Shown here piece by piece: positions 5,010 to 36,534 of a stretch of DNA of 36,534 bases. The notes beneath the pieces were generated by a model. The model worked only from the letters and a program-made list of their open reading frames with translations, did no database searches and had not been told where the DNA came from. Position 1 is the first letter of the stretch. Each line of letters begins with the position of its first letter. Origin of the DNA: a virus; IMG/VR virus record IMGVR_UViG_3300025896_000080, positions 1 through 36,534 of that record; one strand, 5' to 3'. The position numbers and the translations under genes were made by a program.

Positions 5010-6302
5010 ATGAATATTCTTAACCGAGTTTTTAATTATATATGGTCGGGATCGAGTGAATCAATAGCTTACTCCGGTGCTAAAAATTTTAGACTCGGTA
5101 CAGAAAATGTAACACCTGACACTATAAACAAAGTGTCAGCTTACAATAGAGCTGTAAATATAATAAAAAGTCATGTAGCTAAATTAAATTTTGAAATTTA
5201 TGATAGTCAGAAAAATAAAATAAATAATTCAATTCGTTATTTACTTAATGTATCACCCGATGGTGAACTGAATGCATTTGACTTCAAATCTATGATGATA
5301 GAAAGAAGTATTAACAGAGGTAATTTTTACGCTAGAATAATAAAAACGTATTCAGGTGAAATTAAAGCCTTGAAATTCATAGATGATTCTAGAGTTACAC
5401 CTAAACGTGATTTATCCGGTAAACTATATTATGAAATAACCAACAGTAAGACTTCCAGTGTAAGACTTGAAAATTCAGATGTGATACATATAAAAAGCCC
5501 GTGGCTTTCATCAGATGGTTTGACAGGTATGAGTGTATCTACCTATGGTCGAGATGTATTAGGTATATCTCTAAATTACTCTAGTACAATTTTAAATTTT
5601 TTTAAAAACGTGGTTTTACCATTAGGTATATATAAAACTAAAGGTAATCTAGATCCTGAATCACATTCTAGAATTAAATCTAATTTCAATAAGGATGAAG
5701 AGACAGGTAGTGACTCAAGAGGTTCGATAGCTATAGTAGAAGGTCAACATGAGTATGAAAACTTAGAGTACGATGAAGATCCTCTGCAATTTGTTAAATC
5801 AAGAAAATTTACGGTAGCTGAGATAGCTAGATTCTTAAATATTAATACATTATGGCTATCTGATACAGACTTAACAGCTTCAGTTAAATTTAACGATCTT
5901 GAATTAAATCTATATAAAGATACGTTAAGCCCTTGGATTACAAAAATAGAATGTGAAATAAACATGAAGTTACTAAACTTCAGTTATGCCGATAAATATT
6001 GTAGGGCCGATGTGGATATATTAACTCTAGAAGATAAAAAATCAATGGCTGAATACTATAATAAATTACATCAAAATACAGTATACTCCGGTAACGAAAT
6101 CCGCAGTAAATTGAATGAGTCAGATTATGAAGGTGGGAATAGAAGATTTGTAGCCCTGAACAATCTTAAACCTCTTGATAGAATCGACGAAATGATAGAC
6201 TCTGAAATAGAATCAAGTAAACCTCAATTACAACCTAGAGATGTAACAGAGGACGTTAACACTATGGTTATAGAAATGTTTAAAGGTTCACAGGATGAAT
6301 AA
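5010..6302 (+). CDS. Portal protein, HK97 family
   Basis: The dodecameric portal forms the DNA channel at the unique vertex and the docking site for terminase and neck proteins. At 430 residues it has the usual HK97 portal length. Typical segments are YNRAVNIIKSHVAKLNFEIY near residue 50, the NRGNFYARIIK stretch near 105, DVIHIKSPWLSSDGLTGMS near 160, and the wing/stem region with EIARFLNIN near 280. It starts directly after the stop of the small KE/P-rich gene. Finding it after the capsid genes rather than between terL and the protease is unusual for HK97-type modules. Confidence 0.9.
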   Translation: MNILNRVFNYIWSGSSESIAYSGAKNFRLGTENVTPDTINKVSAYNRAVNIIKSHVAKLNFEIYDSQKNKINNSIRYLLNVSPDGELNAFDFKSMMIERSINRGNFYARIIKTYSGEIKALKFIDDSRVTPKRDLSGKLYYEITNSKTSSVRLENSDVIHIKSPWLSSDGLTGMSVSTYGRDVLGISLNYSSTILNFFKNVVLPLGIYKTKGNLDPESHSRIKSNFNKDEETGSDSRGSIAIVEGQHEYENLEYDEDPLQFVKSRKFTVAEIARFLNINTLWLSDTDLTASVKFNDLELNLYKDTLSPWITKIECEINMKLLNFSYADKYCRADVDILTLEDKKSMAEYYNKLHQNTVYSGNEIRSKLNESDYEGGNRRFVALNNLKPLDRIDEMIDSEIESSKPQLQPRDVTEDVNTMVIEMFKGSQDE

Positions 6303-7320
6303 AGAGTTAAGAGAAATACTAATTAAATTAATCGAATCTAGAATTGAAGCTAGAATTGAGTCATTTAATAAACCGGACCGATTGACGTTTGACGATCTTA
6401 CACCTGAGCAAAAAGAACAGCTTAAAGGACCTAAAGGCGATTCAGGTAAAGATGTAGAGTTATCTAGTTTGACTCCATTTTTAGAGATAATGGTTAAAAA
6501 TCATGTTTTTGAAAATTTATCTAAACTTAAATTATCATTCGATGATCTTACACCTGAGCAAAAAGAACAGCTTAAAGGACCTAAAGGTGATTCAGGTAAA
6601 GATGTAAATATAAATGATTTAATACCTGAAATAGATAGAATCGTAGAGAGTAGATTTAACAATTATATTTCTAAACTTAAATTATCATTCGATGATCTTA
6701 CACCTGAGCAAAAAGAACAGCTTAAAGGACCTAAAGGTGATTCAGGTTTAGATTTTGATATAACTAAATGTTTTGATTTAATTAAATCTATTGTAAGTAA
6801 CCATTTAATAGAAAATAGAAAAATATACTCACTTTCATTCGATGATCTTACACCTGAGCAAAAAGAACAGCTTAAAGGACCTAAAGGTGATTCAGGTTTA
6901 GATTTTGACTACATGAAATATGAAGATAAAATAAAAGATACGCTTGCTGAAAACGTAGCTGCATTAAGAGACGATTTAAAATTAAAGTTTTCAGATTTAA
7001 CAGAGGAAGAAAAAGATCAGTTGAAATTTAATTTCTCGAATTTAACCGAATCAGACTTACTTGAGATAGCTAAAAGGGCAGGTAGAGGTCAAAGAGGTAA
7101 AACTGGAATGAGCGCCTACGAAATGGCTGTACTCAGAGGTTATAAAGGTACAGAATCGGAATACATGGTCGGTCTACATGGTGATAGAGGCTTGGACGCA
7201 CCTAAGATAACTTCTGCTGAATTAAAAAAATTAGAAGATAAATCCGTATATGTGGTTTTTACTATGAGCGATGGCAGTACAGTAGAAACTAATACTGTGA
7301 GAGGTCTATATGCTGGTTAG
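6295..7320 (+). CDS. Collagen-like / fibre-motif structural protein
   Basis: 341 residues built from a 50-residue repeat present five times (the fifth degenerate). Each repeat has a nearly invariant block, DDLTPEQKEQLKGPKGDSG, then about 27 residues of differing sequence. The GPKGDSG segments are collagen-like Gly-X-Y, and the variable segments look helical and could trimerise. The C-terminus (about 270-305) carries a phage-fibre motif, SAYEMAVLRGYKGTESEY, followed by LHGDRG. These features suggest a trimeric virion fibre. Its position overlapping the portal stop by 8 nt and before the connector suggests a neck or head appendage rather than a tail fibre. Confidence 0.75.
   Translation: MNKELREILIKLIESRIEARIESFNKPDRLTFDDLTPEQKEQLKGPKGDSGKDVELSSLTPFLEIMVKNHVFENLSKLKLSFDDLTPEQKEQLKGPKGDSGKDVNINDLIPEIDRIVESRFNNYISKLKLSFDDLTPEQKEQLKGPKGDSGLDFDITKCFDLIKSIVSNHLIENRKIYSLSFDDLTPEQKEQLKGPKGDSGLDFDYMKYEDKIKDTLAENVAALRDDLKLKFSDLTEEEKDQLKFNFSNLTESDLLEIAKRAGRGQRGKTGMSAYEMAVLRGYKGTESEYMVGLHGDRGLDAPKITSAELKKLEDKSVYVVFTMSDGSTVETNTVRGLYAG
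6391..7029 (+). repeat. Five-copy repeat with exact 150-nt period
   Basis: Copies begin at 6391, 6541, 6691, 6841 and (degenerate) 6991, each exactly 150 nt apart. The first about 60 nt of each of the first four copies are almost identical at the DNA level, including synonymous positions. The other about 90 nt differ strongly in sequence but not in length. Confidence 0.9.
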
Positions 7321-11604: not shown

Positions 11605-14203
11605 GTCATCCAAAAAAGAACTTAGGGATATTGCTAAAGGTTTAGGTGATGTTAATAAAGCTGTATCTTCAATTAATAGTGCTACAAATATTCTTAAAGG
11701 TTTATGGGCAGCTCAACTATTCGGGTTTGGTATAAGTGAATTAACAGGTATGGCCGATAGTATGACTTTAATGGCAGCTAGAGCTACGATATTTTCTAAA
11801 GCAGGTACAGATGTAAATGTAGTTGTAAGTGAACTTATAGACCTATCTAGAGAGGTTAGAGGGCCTATAGATGATATATCTTCTGCTTTTTCAAGAATTC
11901 AATTATCTACCACTGATCTTAACGTCAGTACTGAAGCTCAGATAGCTTTAACTGAAACTTTAGCTAAGTCTTTTAAATTATCCGGTGCTACCACCGCTGA
12001 AGCAGTTAACTCTATGATCCAGCTCGGTCAAGCATTCCAGCGAGGTAGCCTTAGAGGTCAGGAATTAAATTCAGTATTAACTCAAAATGCCATAGTAGCT
12101 AAAGCGTTAAAAGATTCAGCTAGAGAAGCGGGTAGTGATGTTAGAACATTAGCTGAACAAGGGTTTTTCACTAACCAAAGAGTATTCGATATATTAAGAA
12201 AAATTGCACCTGAGATTGAAGATCAATTCAGCAAACTACCGCCTACATTCGCTGATATATTTTCAAGACTTAGAACTGAAGTAACTGTAACTGCAGGTAA
12301 AATAAATTCAGCTTTAGGTATATCGAGTGGTATATACAATGGGTTGGAATATATGCTTAAAGTTTTACCTAAGATAGCCGATGTTATGGTTCCGCTGACT
12401 GCAGGTGTAACAGGTGCAGCACTAGCCTTTGATTTATTAGCTGCAGCCATGGGTGGTACTAGCGTAGCTCTTACTGTACTTACAGGTATAGCGGCTAAAA
12501 TCGCTTTACCTTTTACAGCTTTAGCAGGAGCGATAGGGGTTTTAGGTAGTTTAAGTTTACCGATTCTTGTAACTACTGTAGCTGTAGTTGGATCTCTAGT
12601 CGCTGGAATATCTTACTTAACGTCTAAGAGTATAGAATTATACGGTGGATTTAGTGACTTAACTAGCTTGAGTAAAGCTATGAGTTTAACATGGGATAAT
12701 ATTTTAAATAGGTCAATAGTCGGTATATCTTATGCACTAGAGACATTACTTTTAGTAGGTAGGGCTACAGCGGCGTTTTTCACTGCTGGTATATCCGAAG
12801 TTGCGTTTGGTGATTTCTTTAACGGTATTACAGATAGTCTACGAAGATTTAGGGAAGAAGCTAATGTTAAAATCGACACTAATAATATACAGAAAAATTT
12901 AATTTCAATCGAAGCGCTAGCTAATAAAAACTTTTATGAAAATAACGCCAAGAAAGAAAATTCAATATTCGATCAGTTAACAGAGTTATATAATAATTCT
13001 AAAAAATACGGTAATGTAAAAAAAGAAATACTCTCTATATCAGAGCAGATAGGTAGACTTAATTCTGAATTCGCTAAGACAGGTAATTTTGACAAGTATA
13101 ACTCTAGAATAAAAGTATTAGAAAAATTAGAATTAGCTGAGAGGCTTAATAAAGGTCAATTAGCGTTAAAGAAATATAATTTAGAATTAGAAAGACTTGA
13201 TTTAGCTGAATTCCAAAGAAAGCTAGAAGCTGGTAAAGCTTCACTTCTAGAGTTTGAAGTAGCAGCTAATACGTTTAAAATAAAAGAGTTAGCTGATAAA
13301 TTCGATTCAGCTAAAATATCGGCTATTGAATTTAATCAAGAGATATTAAAATTAGCAGATAAAGGCACTGTTGATGTTTTAGATCCTAAAATAGTTGAAA
13401 TATTTAAAAGGTTAAATGTAGAAGTAGGTATATTTTCTAAAGGTATTGAAAACGCTTCTAGTAAAATAAGTTACGGTTTTAAATCCGGCCTTAAGCAGTA
13501 TGAAGATGGGATAATGGGTTTAACTGAAAGTGTAGCGTCAGCTACAACGAGTGTTTTTTCAGAATTAGAAGATACACTACTTGACTCATTCAGCGGTCAA
13601 AAAGATGCTTTCGCTGACTTTAGTAGATTCATAATAAATGAAATACAGAGAATCGTTATCAGACTATCTATAATAAAACCTTTACTTGAGTCTATTAATG
13701 CTACTGCAAATTCAGGTAATTTATTTAATCTGGTAGGTGGACTATTTTCAGGTGGTAATACTTCACCTCAATTAGCTGGTCAAACAGGTTTACTGACTGG
13801 ATCTGAAAGTGGTTCTAACTTAGGTGTTAGTTTACTAGGTACTAAAGGTATACAGAGTATAAGTAATAATTACTCTAACTCATTCGATAACACTATACAG
13901 AAAGCTAACAGTGGTTCTAACTTAGGTGTTAGTTTACTAGGTACTAAAGGTATACAGAGTATAAGTAATAATTACTCTAACTCATTCGATAACACTATAC
14001 AGAAAGCTAACTATGATTCTCAAGTAATAGTTAATGTTACAAATAATACACCTTCAGAAATTAAAGTAACTGAGTCTACTTCATCCGATGGATTTAAAAG
14101 TATAGACATCATGGTTGAAGCTAAAGTTAATAAAGGTATAGCTGAAGGTAAATTCGATAGTTCACTCAGACAGTCTTATGGTCTTCAGAGGAGAGGTCAG
14201 TAA
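11537..14203 (+). CDS. Tape measure protein
   Basis: 888 residues; sets tail length (very roughly 130 nm by the usual 1.5 Å per residue rule) and is ejected with the DNA. The N-terminal region (about 45-235) matches the tape-measure N-terminal domain, with ISSAFSRIQLSTT, QLGQAFQRGSLRGQELNSVL and a LAEQGFF segment. Hydrophobic segments lie at about 275-360, the likely membrane-crossing part, followed by long charged helices (430-640). A Gly/Ser/Asn-rich zone near 735-830 contains a perfect 34-residue tandem duplication. The gene starts inside the T frame of the chaperone and ends in a TAATG overlap with the next tail gene. Confidence 0.93.
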   Translation: MTGNLTPSQIQQRIVRVVVSTPESSKKELRDIAKGLGDVNKAVSSINSATNILKGLWAAQLFGFGISELTGMADSMTLMAARATIFSKAGTDVNVVVSELIDLSREVRGPIDDISSAFSRIQLSTTDLNVSTEAQIALTETLAKSFKLSGATTAEAVNSMIQLGQAFQRGSLRGQELNSVLTQNAIVAKALKDSAREAGSDVRTLAEQGFFTNQRVFDILRKIAPEIEDQFSKLPPTFADIFSRLRTEVTVTAGKINSALGISSGIYNGLEYMLKVLPKIADVMVPLTAGVTGAALAFDLLAAAMGGTSVALTVLTGIAAKIALPFTALAGAIGVLGSLSLPILVTTVAVVGSLVAGISYLTSKSIELYGGFSDLTSLSKAMSLTWDNILNRSIVGISYALETLLLVGRATAAFFTAGISEVAFGDFFNGITDSLRRFREEANVKIDTNNIQKNLISIEALANKNFYENNAKKENSIFDQLTELYNNSKKYGNVKKEILSISEQIGRLNSEFAKTGNFDKYNSRIKVLEKLELAERLNKGQLALKKYNLELERLDLAEFQRKLEAGKASLLEFEVAANTFKIKELADKFDSAKISAIEFNQEILKLADKGTVDVLDPKIVEIFKRLNVEVGIFSKGIENASSKISYGFKSGLKQYEDGIMGLTESVASATTSVFSELEDTLLDSFSGQKDAFADFSRFIINEIQRIVIRLSIIKPLLESINATANSGNLFNLVGGLFSGGNTSPQLAGQTGLLTGSESGSNLGVSLLGTKGIQSISNNYSNSFDNTIQKANSGSNLGVSLLGTKGIQSISNNYSNSFDNTIQKANYDSQVIVNVTNNTPSEIKVTESTSSDGFKSIDIMVEAKVNKGIAEGKFDSSLRQSYGLQRRGQ
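13808..14011 (+). repeat. Perfect 102-bp tandem duplication in the tape measure gene
   Basis: Bases 13808-13909 recur without a single change at 13910-14011. The unit encodes 34 residues beginning SGSNLGVSLLGTKG. Identity at every synonymous site implies a recent duplication or ongoing gene conversion; a change in copy number would alter tape length in 34-residue steps. Confidence 0.95.
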
Positions 14204-25931: not shown

Positions 25932-26888
25932 CTATCGCTGTTGAAAAGGATTAAAAGTGTTCTGTTGAGGTTGAGCTACACCACCTGCTTGCGCCCCAAA
26001 AGGATTAACTTGAGCTTGCTGTTGAGGTTGAGCTACACCACCTGCTTGCGAGCCAAAAGGATTAACTTGAGCTTGCTGTTGAGGTTGAACTATAGAACTA
26101 GGGTTAAATATAGTTTGATGTGGCTGTGCCTGTTGAGGTTGAGCTACACCACCTGCTTGCGCACCAAAAGGATTAACTTGAGCTTGCTGTTGAGGTTGTG
26201 GGTTAAAACCTGAATTTACCGGAGCTAGAGGGCTAGAGCTAGCGCCTTGAGGTAAACCTACAGGCTGATTAGCATTAAACATACCTATAACATCCGGTCT
26301 AACACTAATCACTTCACCGTGACCTATACGCATCATCCCAATAATGTTTAAATACATTCCAGCTTTACCTCTACCTACAGCAGTATGACCTTTAACTGTC
26401 ATAGCTACTTGATAATAGTCACCGCAGTTAAGACCTACGTTAACTGTTTTAGCTTGTCTTGATTGATAATCATAATCAGCAAACGTAGGTGGCCAATAAC
26501 TACTTAAAGTTAATACGAAATGACCAGCGTATCCTGTTCTCTGATTAAATGGATTATTTCTAGAATCTGCTGCGGTTGAATCACCATCTATCATCTTCCA
26601 ACTAAAGTCTGAGCCTCTACCTGAAAAATTATAACTTAAAGGGATACCTAATGCTGAAGCTTCAGCGTTAATAACTGAAAATACTTCACCTCTACCACCT
26701 TCTTGTGTTTCATTCATAACCGATTTCGGTATTGCGAACATATAACACCATTGTTTTTTAGGTTGACCTGATTCATCCAGTACAGGTTTACCATCGTCGT
26801 CCGTTACAGGACCGCCATTAAATAAATCCCCTACGAGACCTACCATACGGCATTCTTTTATTAATACTGATTTACCTTTTGTTTCCAT
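25932..26888 (-). CDS. ssDNA-binding protein (DUF2815-like) with Q/P/NPF-rich repeated tail
   Basis: 318 residues. The first about 195 resemble phage single-strand binding proteins of the DUF2815 kind: KQWCYMFAIPKS, NNPFNQRTGYAGHFVLTLSS, and the central strand CGDYYQVAMTVKG. It is co-transcribed with a DUF2800-type nuclease and the polymerase, the usual partners. The last about 115 residues are low complexity, with a 19-residue unit, QPQQQAQVNPFGAQAGGVA, nearly three times over. Five NPF tripeptides occur in all. The tail ends NPFQQR and lacks the acidic end common in bacterial SSBs, so partner contacts may use NPF motifs instead. Good GGAGAAG ribosome-binding site. Confidence 0.75.
   Translation of the reverse strand: METKGKSVLIKECRMVGLVGDLFNGGPVTDDDGKPVLDESGQPKKQWCYMFAIPKSVMNETQEGGRGEVFSVINAEASALGIPLSYNFSGRGSDFSWKMIDGDSTAADSRNNPFNQRTGYAGHFVLTLSSYWPPTFADYDYQSRQAKTVNVGLNCGDYYQVAMTVKGHTAVGRGKAGMYLNIIGMMRIGHGEVISVRPDVIGMFNANQPVGLPQGASSSPLAPVNSGFNPQPQQQAQVNPFGAQAGGVAQPQQAQPHQTIFNPSSIVQPQQQAQVNPFGSQAGGVAQPQQQAQVNPFGAQAGGVAQPQQNTFNPFQQR
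25962..26195 (-). repeat. 57-bp repeat units in the ssDNA-binding protein tail
   Basis: Units start (plus-strand coordinates) at 25962 and 26019, and a third, spaced by a diverged insert, at 26130. They are nearly identical at DNA level, with small changes such as GCCCC/GAGCC/GCACC. The 57-bp period is in frame (19 residues), so copy number can vary without breaking the gene. Confidence 0.85.
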
Positions 26889-34557: not shown

Positions 34558-35412
34558 ATGATAAAAGAACTAACACAAGAACAAAAAAGCAAGTTTCCTG
34601 AATATGTAAAAAAATGGACTGATATTGGCAGATCAACAGGTGTCACGACGCCAGAAATGCGAGAAAAAGCTGAAGAAATAGTTCGCAAAATTTACGAAAT
34701 ATCTAAGTTAAATAAAAATGTTGAAATTGTTTGGTGTACTTCACCAGAAGACGCTTTGAAAAAAGGAGTAAAATCGGATGCCGCAAGATATGTACAAGGG
34801 TATGCAGGCTGGGAAGGATTTGTAGATTTTTTTAGAACAGAATGCGGATTAGTTAAAGAAACAGAAAACTCTCTTGAGGGTGAGCTTTCTAAAAATATAT
34901 TTATGTACTTTGTTTACGACACGAAATGTTTTTTAGTTGAAAAACCGATAGAGATGAATTTTGATTCTCAAAATCGAGCGCATAGTTATAACAGACCTTC
35001 TCATTTGTGGAGCGATGGCAGTTGTTTGTGTCACTTTTCAGGGATTAAAGTACCTATGAAATATGTTAAAGCTAAAACTTTTACAAAAGAAGAAATTCTA
35101 AGCGAGAAAAATGCGGATATACGCCGCGAAATGGTGGCTAAAATTGGAATTATAGAAGCTGAGAAAATATTAGGGTCTGTTTGTATAGATCGTTTAGAAA
35201 CTAAGTTTGGCGGCGTGTATGAATTGCTACTTATAGACTACAATAATTCTGGTGAGGAAAGGCCATATTTAAAAATGAAAAACCCAAGTTTAGAAAACAT
35301 GTACCATATTGAGGGCATTGGTAAAGATGTGAAAACAGTTAAAGAAGCGATTATGTTTAGGTGGGACCTTAAAGAACTACCAGACGAAGACATGATTTCT
35401 TCGGTGACTTAA
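34558..35412 (+). CDS. DUF6745-like protein
   Basis: 284 residues. The family outline, recalled from other bacteria and phages, is visible. An AGWEGFVDFFRTECGL segment (83-98) aligns with the W-x-x-Y/F-x-x-FFR opening. FLVEKPIEMNFDSQNRAHSY and PSHLWSDGSCLCHFSGIKVP (147-166) align with the D-x-x-xRxH ... GPSxxWRDGxxLYxWxGVxVP core. SEKNADIRREMVAKIGI aligns with the EN-x-x-x-RRA helix. Relatives often carry long runs of valine tetrapeptides before this core; here they are absent, and follow instead as separate genes. The very last codons (TCT TCG GTG ACT TAA) read SSVT, a repeat-like unit in the array's own codons. AAAGGA ribosome-binding site. Codon use (CGC, GGC, GGA) differs from the phage body. 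Confidence 0.72.
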   Translation: MIKELTQEQKSKFPEYVKKWTDIGRSTGVTTPEMREKAEEIVRKIYEISKLNKNVEIVWCTSPEDALKKGVKSDAARYVQGYAGWEGFVDFFRTECGLVKETENSLEGELSKNIFMYFVYDTKCFLVEKPIEMNFDSQNRAHSYNRPSHLWSDGSCLCHFSGIKVPMKYVKAKTFTKEEILSEKNADIRREMVAKIGIIEAEKILGSVCIDRLETKFGGVYELLLIDYNNSGEERPYLKMKNPSLENMYHIEGIGKDVKTVKEAIMFRWDLKELPDEDMISSVT

Positions 35413-35413
35413 A

Positions 35414-35650
35414 ATGAAATCGGTGGATTCTCAGGTGAATTCTACGGTGTATTCTTCGGTGAGGTCTGCGGTGTATTCTTCGGTGAGGTCTGCGGTGTTG
35501 GATGCGGTGTGGGCTGAGGTGTGGGATCCGGTGTCTTCTGAGGTGGATTCTGCGGTGGATTCTGCGGTGTGGGCTGAGGTGAATTCTTCGGTGTGGGCTG
35601 AGGTGAATTCTTCGGTGTATTCTTCAAGCTTCGAAAGGTGGATAGAATGA
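35414..35650 (+). CDS. Tetrapeptide-repeat mini-protein 1
   Basis: 78 residues: cap MKSV, 16 tetrapeptides (such as YSSV, RSAV, LDAV, WAEV, WDPV), and the tail YSSSFERWIE. It starts 1 nt after the DUF6745-like stop. There is no strong Shine-Dalgarno, only GGTG about 8 nt before the ATG, so it may be translated by coupling. Every fourth residue is Val. The residue after each Val varies among Y, W, D, N, R, L, S and G. Its codons carry the ribosome-binding site of mini-gene 2 (GAAAGGTGG). No enzyme motif, signal or membrane segment. Confidence 0.8.
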   Translation: MKSVDSQVNSTVYSSVRSAVYSSVRSAVLDAVWAEVWDPVSSEVDSAVDSAVWAEVNSSVWAEVNSSVYSSSFERWIE

Positions 35651-35883
35651 AATCGGTGAATTCTGCGGTGTATTCTTCGGTGAGGTCTGCGGTGTATTCT
35701 TCGGTGAGGTCTGCGGTGTATTCTTCGGTGGGTTCTGAGGTGTGGGATCCGGTGTCTTCTGCGGTGGGTTCTGAGGTGTGGGATGCGGTGTCTTCTGAGG
35801 TGTGGGATGAGGTGAATTCTGCGGTGTATTCTGCGGTGTTGGATGCGGTGAGGTCTTCAAACTTCGAAAGGTGGATAGAATGA
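35647..35883 (+). CDS. Tetrapeptide-repeat mini-protein 2
   Basis: 78 residues from ATG 35647, which overlaps the previous stop (ATGA) and lies 5 nt after AGGTGG; an in-frame GTG 9 nt earlier lies inside that site. MKSV cap, 16 tetrapeptides and the tail RSSNFERWIE. It shares a YSSV-RSAV doublet run with protein 1 near the start, then diverges with GSEV, WDPV, WDAV and WDEV units. The Ser of the previous tail is replaced by Asn. Confidence 0.82.
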   Translation: MKSVNSAVYSSVRSAVYSSVRSAVYSSVGSEVWDPVSSAVGSEVWDAVSSEVWDEVNSAVYSAVLDAVRSSNFERWIE

Positions 35884-36092
35884 AATCGGTGAATTCTGCG
35901 GTGTGGGCTGAGGTGAGTTCTGCGGTGTATTCTGAGGTGTATTCTTCGGTGAATTCTGCGGTGTATTCTGCGGTGTTGGATGCGGTGAATTCTTCGGTGT
36001 ATTCTGCGGTGTTGGATGCGGTGTATTCTGCGGTGTTGGATGCGGTGAATTCTTCGGTGGGTTCTTCAAGCTTCGAAAGGTGGATAGAATGA
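35880..36092 (+). CDS. Tetrapeptide-repeat mini-protein 3
   Basis: 70 residues from ATG 35880 (ATGA overlap). MKSV cap, 14 tetrapeptides, and tail GSSSFERWIE. YSAV-LDAV pairs occur three times (the first two flanked by NSSV), showing local duplication of two-unit blocks. No WDxV unit. Ribosome-binding site supplied by the FERW codons of protein 2. Confidence 0.82.
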   Translation: MKSVNSAVWAEVSSAVYSEVYSSVNSAVYSAVLDAVNSSVYSAVLDAVYSAVLDAVNSSVGSSSFERWIE

Positions 36093-36289
36093 AATCGGTG
36101 GATTCTGAGGTGGATTCTGCGGTGTCTTCTGCGGTGGATTCTGAGGTGAATTCTGCGGTGGATTCTGCGGTGTCTTCTGCGGTGGATTCTGCGGTGGATT
36201 CTGCGGTGTGGGCTGAGGTGAGTTCTACTGTGAATTCTGCGGTGTTGGATGCGGTGAGGTCTTCAAACTTCGAAAGGTGGATAGAATGA
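36089..36289 (+). CDS. Tetrapeptide-repeat mini-protein 4
   Basis: 66 residues from ATG 36089 (ATGA overlap). MKSV cap, 13 tetrapeptides dominated by DSAV, DSEV and SSAV, and tail RSSNFERWIE preceded by LDAV exactly as in protein 2. It is the most acidic member of the set and has only one WAEV. Much of its order (SSAV-DSEV-NSAV) is shared with protein 5. Confidence 0.82.
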   Translation: MKSVDSEVDSAVSSAVDSEVNSAVDSAVSSAVDSAVDSAVWAEVSSTVNSAVLDAVRSSNFERWIE

Positions 36290-36474
36290 ATTCGGTGGAT
36301 TCTGAGGTGGATTCTGCGGTGTGGGCTGAGGTGGATTCTGCGGTGTCTTCTGCGGTGGATTCTGAGGTGAATTCTGCGGTGTATTCTGCGGTGTGGTCTT
36401 CGGTGTATTCTGCGGTGTGGGCTGAGGTGGATTCTGCGATGAGGGATTCAAGCTTCGAAAGGTGGGCAGAGTGA
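36286..36474 (+). CDS. Tetrapeptide-repeat mini-protein 5
   Basis: 62 residues from ATG 36286 (ATGA overlap). The cap is MNSV instead of MKSV (AAA changed to AAT). Twelve tetrapeptides, the last one DSAM with ATG in place of GTG, and a tail RDSSFERWAE with Ala for Ile. It is the most diverged copy, and its stop overlaps a GTG start. Array members thus get shorter along the array: 16, 16, 14, 13 and 12 units. Confidence 0.82.
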   Translation: MNSVDSEVDSAVWAEVDSAVSSAVDSEVNSAVYSAVWSSVYSAVWAEVDSAMRDSSFERWAE

Positions 36475-36534
36475 AGTCGGTGTATTCTGCGGTGTGGTCT
36501 TCGGTGTATTCTGCGGTGTGGGATGCGGTGTGGG
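36471..36534 (+). CDS. Tetrapeptide-repeat mini-protein 6 (partial)
   Basis: Starts with GTG (GTGA overlap with the previous stop) after the conserved GAAAGGTGG. The visible 21 codons encode the MKSV cap and the units YSAV, WSSV, YSAV and WDAV before the window ends. GTG replaces ATG as the start, otherwise the arrangement is the same. Length and tail are unknown. Confidence 0.75.
   Translation, partial: MKSVYSAVWSSVYSAVWDAVW

Follow-up and report, generated by a model that had tools for sequence, protein, structure and literature searches.

What does a phage make from a row of very small, nearly alike genes that is still running when its contig ends, and does this row act alone? The stretch of DNA that raises the question, here called the window, makes up an entire virus record, linear and 36,534 bases long (IMG/VR IMGVR_UViG_3300025896_000080), and its contig end falls inside the array. 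Terminase, major capsid and tape-measure genes are present in the window, and the window phage is therefore a tailed phage.

A row of capped mini-genes

On the plus strand, six head-to-tail open reading frames fill positions 35414-36534, five of them complete and the sixth truncated; since the contig ends within the array, the number of mini-genes is a minimum (at least six). The row is directly adjoined upstream by a gene for a DUF6745 protein, and mini-gene 1 starts 1 nt past the stop codon of this gene, a link that was absent from the preliminary description of the locus. The features are as follows.

34558-35412, + strand: DUF6745 gene, 284 aa, without tetrapeptide array (Pfam PF20530, E 1.3e-10)
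35414-35650, + strand: mini-gene 1, 78 aa, 16 tetrapeptides, MKSV...FERWIE
35647-35883, + strand: mini-gene 2, 78 aa, 16 tetrapeptides, ATGA overlap with mini-gene 1
35880-36092, + strand: mini-gene 3, 70 aa, 14 tetrapeptides, ATGA overlap
36089-36289, + strand: mini-gene 4, 66 aa, 13 tetrapeptides, ATGA overlap
36286-36474, + strand: mini-gene 5, 62 aa, 12 tetrapeptides, MNSV...FERWAE, ATGA overlap
36471-36534, + strand: mini-gene 6, GTG start (GTGA overlap), VKSV and four units, truncated at the contig end
35630-35650, + strand: junction cassette TTCGAAAGGTGGATAGAATGA, made up of end cap, stop and the following start, from the junction-pattern search
35863-35883, 36072-36092 and 36269-36289, + strand: repeats of the junction cassette, same search
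36454-36474, + strand: changed copy of the junction cassette, same search
35636-35640, + strand: AGGTG, candidate Shine-Dalgarno site within the FERW (ERW) codons, 6 nt ahead of the mini-gene 2 ATG

The preliminary description, which had been made from the sequence alone, reported tandem tiny genes with common caps around 12-16 tetrapeptides in the complete members, and this reading holds: 74 of the 75 units end in Val, the exception being DSAM in mini-gene 5. Its front cap, MKSV or MNSV, is right for the five complete members but not for the sixth, which has VKSV. The small set of residues from which the variable position was said to be drawn is confirmed by the counts in the window units (Y 15, D 14, W 14, N 12, S 8, L 6, R 4, G 2). 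Each start codon overlaps the preceding stop by 4 nt, as ATGA or, for the sixth mini-gene, GTGA, and at the junctions the end cap FERWIE or FERWAE is followed by M or V, K or N, and SV. A degenerate pattern of this cap junction gives five matches in the window, with 0.00 expected from shuffles. Shine-Dalgarno-type sites are complementary to the 3' end of 16S rRNA, and AGGTG, which is also found six bases 5' of the starts of mini-genes 3-6, may serve the mini-genes as such a site. Coupled starts, fixed caps and frame-preserving changes give indirect support to the view that the mini-genes may be translated.

The array has a period of 12 bp and a G+C content of 52.5%, compared with 34.4% for the window. 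The fixed Val of the units is always coded by GTG (74/74) and the fixed Ala by GCG (41/41), whereas four long genes taken from this phage use these codons for 6% of their Val and 11% of their Ala. The mini-genes share runs of up to four consecutive units, and their summed longest shared runs (23) exceed those of all 2000 shuffles (mean 14.0). The proposal that such genes arise by shuffling of 12-bp units thus stands for the differences between relatives described below, but the mini-genes of the window are not independent shuffles, and have shared runs as block duplication would give.

None of the five complete mini-genes matches DUF6745 (PF20530) in a Pfam search, and PADLOC, NCBIfam and PHROGs assign a function to neither the window DUF6745 protein nor the mini-genes. 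A search with the mini-gene sequences gave no confirmed relatives, probably because repeats are filtered and the caps are lineage-specific. A search of other genomes for the exact FERWxE junction was equally unproductive, with 14 single chance matches and none in tandem. A scan for GTN every 12 nt yielded mostly low-complexity GTN-rich frames; its useful results were L118, L043, L069, L063 and several fused genes. No nucleotide relatives of the window were found in the phage collection, and no relatives of its primase in viral contigs.

Three further repeats occur elsewhere in the window. Positions 13808-14011, close to the tape-measure gene's 3' end, hold an exact 102-bp tandem duplication (two copies, 100% identical), which may be real or an assembly artefact. 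Repeats of about 150 bp at 6394-6897 lie in the gene 6295-7320, which gives repeated DDLTPEQKEQLKGPKGDSG as collagen-like motifs. In a gene for a single-strand-binding protein that resembles gp2.5, 57-bp repeats at 25962-26198 fall within the C-terminal tail (QPQQQAQVNPFGAQAGGVAQ).

The DUF6745 neighbour and its fused relatives

With 41.4 bits, the window DUF6745 protein lies above the curated PF20530 cut-off of 27, and the search of the whole record gives an E-value of 1.4e-12. In most DUF6745 relatives a tetrapeptide array is internal to the protein and comprises up to 166 units. Of 14 aligned DUF6745 proteins, 12 have this array in the stretch that separates two conserved blocks, two of these 12 being fragments without the first block; it is absent from the window protein. 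When the fused class is defined by at least 10 tetrapeptides between WCxSP and YGxHDA in one protein, the window protein falls outside it. The earlier view that the array is not a single structural repeat protein is not supported in that form, as most of these relatives carry it as a domain inside one DUF6745 protein. The fused proteins and the window have in common the companion domain and four-residue units from 12-bp repeats; unlike in the fused proteins, the array of the window stands outside DUF6745 and is divided into several differing capped mini-genes. We hold it to be very probable that the array of the window is a split form of the DUF6745 tetrapeptide module.

Fused relatives, with long internal arrays such as WDSVRASVGDSV, were found in other phage contigs (L016-L018) as well as in those of Deltaproteobacteria, Cyanobacteria, Planctomycetes, Peregrinibacteria, Gastranaerophilales, Chloroflexi and others. 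Among named phages, the fused type is present in cta39025 (UOF77368.1), with units xSSL, and in the Mycobacterium abscessus prophage prophiGD102-1 (gp38), with units x[DG]QL. L223:3984-6728 is a single fused DUF6745 open reading frame of 914 aa, in which the tetrapeptide units number about 166. The array module also exists outside DUF6745, as x-x-S-V arrays of the same kind occur within an unrelated protein family, in L029:2701-3618 (which begins MYKLTRPNGKDFYS) and L030:2602-3593 (MATYYKLARPDGFDFYS), from Dehalococcoidia and Desulfobacula contigs.

In some bacterial proteins, from genomes drawn from the phylum of L024, DUF6745 is joined to leucine-rich repeats (L287:1-2091, L295:127-1806, L301:1-1143), and some genomes of this phylum have 7-8 DUF6745 genes each. 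Leucine-rich repeats are a known recognition module, and such fusions fit a division in which DUF6745 would stay constant and recognition or tuning would fall to the repeats.

Recurrence of the split form

The split arrangement is not restricted to the window. From IMG/VR viral contigs, 104 DUF6745 loci were fetched with two alignments, and 61 complete genes were left after removal of near-copies. The split class was defined as an array-less DUF6745 gene accompanied by capped same-strand mini-genes within 5 kb, and a mini-gene was counted if it had at least 11 units, lay on the same strand and was no more than 5 kb from DUF6745. Mini-genes, one to twelve in each case, accompany 23 of the 31 array-less loci (the window and 22 others) and none of the 30 loci with an internal array, an association with a Fisher p of 2.6e-10 when relatives are counted as independent. 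The first alignment had been built partly from loci with mini-genes already known; among array-less loci found by the fused-form alignment alone the numbers are 7/12 vs 0/30 (p 2.9e-5). The control strand, 252 kb in all, contains no qualifying open reading frame. At seven array-less loci mini-genes were not found in the available DNA of those loci, and L222, which is counted among the 31, retains some four to five units as a remnant.

A tree of DUF6745 requires between three changes of array state, when well-supported branches are considered, and five. The array-less state arose at least three times, one of these being the window, which sits on a long and uncertain branch. In the two to three independent contrasts that differ, mini-genes always accompany the array-less state, a number too small for significance.

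The rows themselves differ from phage to phage. In L043, an independent phage contig, an array-less DUF6745 gene is followed by four mini-genes of the WNQV type, and the end cap and the next start cap are coded by the same bases in two frames. Within one phage the overlap is constant: it measures 4 nt in the window, 11 nt in L175, 13 nt in L214 and 17 nt in both L043 and L187. Spacing is looser in L166, L172 and L216. The caps are likewise alike within a phage and unlike between phages, for example MKQSLNN...NKINETIT in L187, MTLKDSV...LIKSHDT in L175 and MNNFNIRKAV...DYFQNDLR in L172; an ATG start is used by 116 of 124 mini-genes. The lineage-specific caps and overlaps suggest that each lineage amplified its own cassette.

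Rows larger than that of the window, with 8-12 mini-genes, are present at L187:1377-3498, L175:27-1698, L172:6625-10315 and L168:128-3418. A row of at least six mini-genes of the form MNNSxxYKAV...DYFANELR is found at the end of a 48,319-base contig (L118:1-1466); its caps resemble those beside DUF6745 in L172, and DUF6745 was not detected in this contig, which starts inside the array.

Contigs often end in such arrays, as do the window and 19 fused loci, and the tetrapeptide arrays would be the reason why many phage contigs stop there. This could be taken as a sign of an assembly artefact, or of a functionless, selfish repeat spread by slippage. Both are very improbable explanations, as complete arrays with intact flanks are found inside the contigs of many phages, and as the coding structure has been kept in at least three lineages.

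Variation and turnover of the arrays

In nearly every fused array checked, residues 3 and 4 of the unit are near-fixed, and residues 1 and 2 vary, mostly among W/R/G and D/A. The codons of the fixed Ser-Val pair differ by phage (TCC GTA, AGC GTC, TCA GTC, AGT GTT), and positional entropies give the third codon positions as the least variable in most arrays, so that changes are mostly amino-acid altering. From the differing Ser-Val codons together with the least-variable third positions, it follows that the constraint acts on the peptide, in the coding frame. This bears on the explanation that the 12-bp repeats serve in the DNA as sites for binding or recombination, with open frames that are incidental, for which the periodicity and the G+C content of the array, well above that of the window, could be cited. 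We give this explanation hardly any weight, because the nucleotide unit varies between phages with the peptide pattern kept in one frame, because conservation extends to caps, start codons and the fixed overlaps, and because the 12-bp insertions and deletions keep the frame.

Comparison of close relatives makes it clear that the arrays turn over fast. In their DUF6745 flanks, L201 and L202 share 86 of 87 and 200 of 209 residues, yet the order of units in their arrays (28 and 30 units) is as unlike as if shuffled, with a longest common subsequence of 15 vs 15.2; L182 and L183 are similar to this pair, with a weak trace of a common order remaining. Over 7.3 kb, L243 differs from L244 in nothing but one 12-bp unit inside a mini-gene, and in L189 and L191 the flanks are 98-99% identical and the mini-genes have been replaced. 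An identical unit order in all relatives, which had been named as evidence against a repertoire, was consequently not what the comparison found, and the idea of a repertoire of short variable peptides gains from relatives that differ by single 12-bp units or in their whole order. The correlation between unit positions decays with distance and has no clear peak at lags of up to nine units, which fits local duplication and slippage; no solenoid geometry can be read from it.

Predicted structure

Given mini-gene 1 and 13 relatives, AlphaFold2 predicts a single helix that runs the full length of the chain (mean pLDDT 88.8, pTM 0.47). In the fused protein L016, the DUF6745 part is predicted with confidence and the array mostly with pLDDT below 50. 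Of the helical or solenoid face that had been suggested as possible from the strict Val spacing, the prediction for a single member thus supports the helix, over all of mini-gene 1, but no solenoid, and the low confidence for the fused array does not favour a solenoid either. As a working model, the free mini-protein may be a rod-like helix. For the DUF6745 fold, Foldseek found no PDB match and VIA-align no row above Z 4.1; significant matches in BFVD are DUF6745 proteins and one phage fragment. The array sequence gave low-complexity matches only when compared with solved structures.

A single long helix is also what would be expected if the mini-proteins were structural or spacer rods, in which the length matters and the sequence is near-neutral, the mini-genes being spare or filament-forming copies. 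The random-like unit order of L201 and L202 agrees with this, as do the escape mutants of phage Tweety, which are reported to alter repeat number (PMC9262239). Nevertheless we judge such rods to be improbable: neutral drift would also alter third codon positions, yet these vary least, and the same small alphabet (W/R/G, then D/A) is used in unrelated phages and with unrelated codons.

A split module and its possible role

Domains that are fused in some genomes and encoded separately in others are a classical sign of parts that work together. The two architectures of the tetrapeptide array, fused and free, point in this sense to a joint action of array and DUF6745, and we consider it rather likely that the mini-proteins are variable subunits acting with DUF6745. 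One gene would provide the constant DUF6745 protein, and the translationally coupled row would provide several short rods, capped at both ends and differing in unit order. Each unit joins the fixed Val and small residues to one variable position, filled from W/R/G/Y/D/N/S/L. New variants would be generated when 12-bp units are gained, lost or rearranged, and when whole cassettes are duplicated from cap to cap. Most likely, the rods would act in trans with DUF6745 as interchangeable recognition or tuning subunits, a role for which the precedent of Tweety gp54 and the fusions of DUF6745 to leucine-rich repeats speak by analogy.

The task of this module would most likely be counter-defence during infection. 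As gp54 shows no detectable homology to DUF6745, this step is an analogy only, and counter-defence is put forward tentatively, as the leading candidate among roles that each fall short of an even chance. Alternatively, the mini-proteins could bind targets outside defence, with or without DUF6745, for example in exclusion of competitors or at phage receptors, on proteins of satellite or superinfecting phages, or as decoys. The variable W, Y, R, G, D, N and S are typical of binding surfaces, and many different rods per genome with fast turnover would suit such targets as well; the strict coupling to array-less DUF6745 argues instead for a job in common with DUF6745, and in a non-systematic look neither signal peptides nor a link to structural genes came to notice. 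We think that binding outside defence is somewhat unlikely. For the complete model, with a split multi-copy module, rods that act in trans with DUF6745 and a function in counter-defence, the chances appear to be slightly below even.

If the model is true, viruses have a new way to keep a repertoire of variable binding proteins. The existence of two architectures predicts that DUF6745 is a physical partner of the rods, dozens of natural variants are available for comparison, and the meaning of the array order becomes a testable question.

Comparison with known systems

Pentapeptide-repeat proteins also have short-period repeats with one fixed hydrophobic position, in which they resemble the window units. 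An identity with them was rejected, as the window period is four residues (12 bp) and not five, and as there is no Pfam match. Diversity-generating retroelements bring about a targeted, fast diversification of proteins in phages; unlike there, the changes here come in 12-bp units. No reverse transcriptase was found in 16 array-bearing records including the window, most of them fragments, and a retroelement of this kind is not indicated by these records.

For Bordetella phage BMP-1, the repeat region VR2 in bbp36 is reported to vary in copy number among isolates, with unknown function (cited in PMC2884959). Set beside the window by this description alone, it differs in its 24-bp units and in being a single gene. 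Literature on DUF6745 or on these repeat strings was not found in a search that left subscription papers and preprints largely outside, and on phage tetrapeptide repeats only the work on Tweety was relevant; the split mini-gene form was not found described there.

For function, the one experimental lead is Tweety gp54, a protein of tetrapeptides coded by 12-bp units, with a published sequence description (PMC2884959). Two reviews from the mycobacteriophage field report that prophage defences, those of Phrann or MichelleMyBell, are overcome by gp54 mutants with altered repeat number, so that the copy number decides which defence is escaped (PMC9262239, PMC8549241). Like the arrays here, gp54 (and its counterparts Che8 gp57 and PMC gp51) has 12-bp, tetrapeptide repeats in a phage protein, and non-synonymous variation, invariant third codon positions and a copy number that differs among relatives are common to both (PMC2884959). 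The Tweety-type pattern, in which codon positions 1 and 2 of the 12-bp units vary and the third is fixed, is also what positional entropies give for the arrays here. On the other hand, gp54 is one gene with one array, unrelated flanking domains and no row of mini-genes, and its unit, AA[GWQ][SY], is without the Val register. It has no Pfam DUF6745 match, and hhalign against the DUF6745 alignment gives a probability of 0.1%, by which membership in the Tweety gp54 family through homologous N- and C-terminal domains was rejected. As gp54 has no detectable kinship to DUF6745, the comparison supports the statement that the arrays work like gp54, and not that they belong to its family.

We take the mini-gene repertoire for a variant of the tetrapeptide-repeat phage proteins, and there is a fair chance that it forms a separate system. 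We would suggest, with due caution as this is a possibility short of an even chance, that phages of many bacterial groups hold a hitherto undescribed repertoire, in which a constant DUF6745 protein would be combined with rods, made at the same time and continually re-diversified, as exchangeable and tunable binders against host or prophage defences. Tweety gp54 has so far been a single curiosity, whereas the arrays here are linked to DUF6745, a widespread domain of unknown function, and come in two exchangeable architectures: a single long array within the protein, or many genes that carry a short array each.
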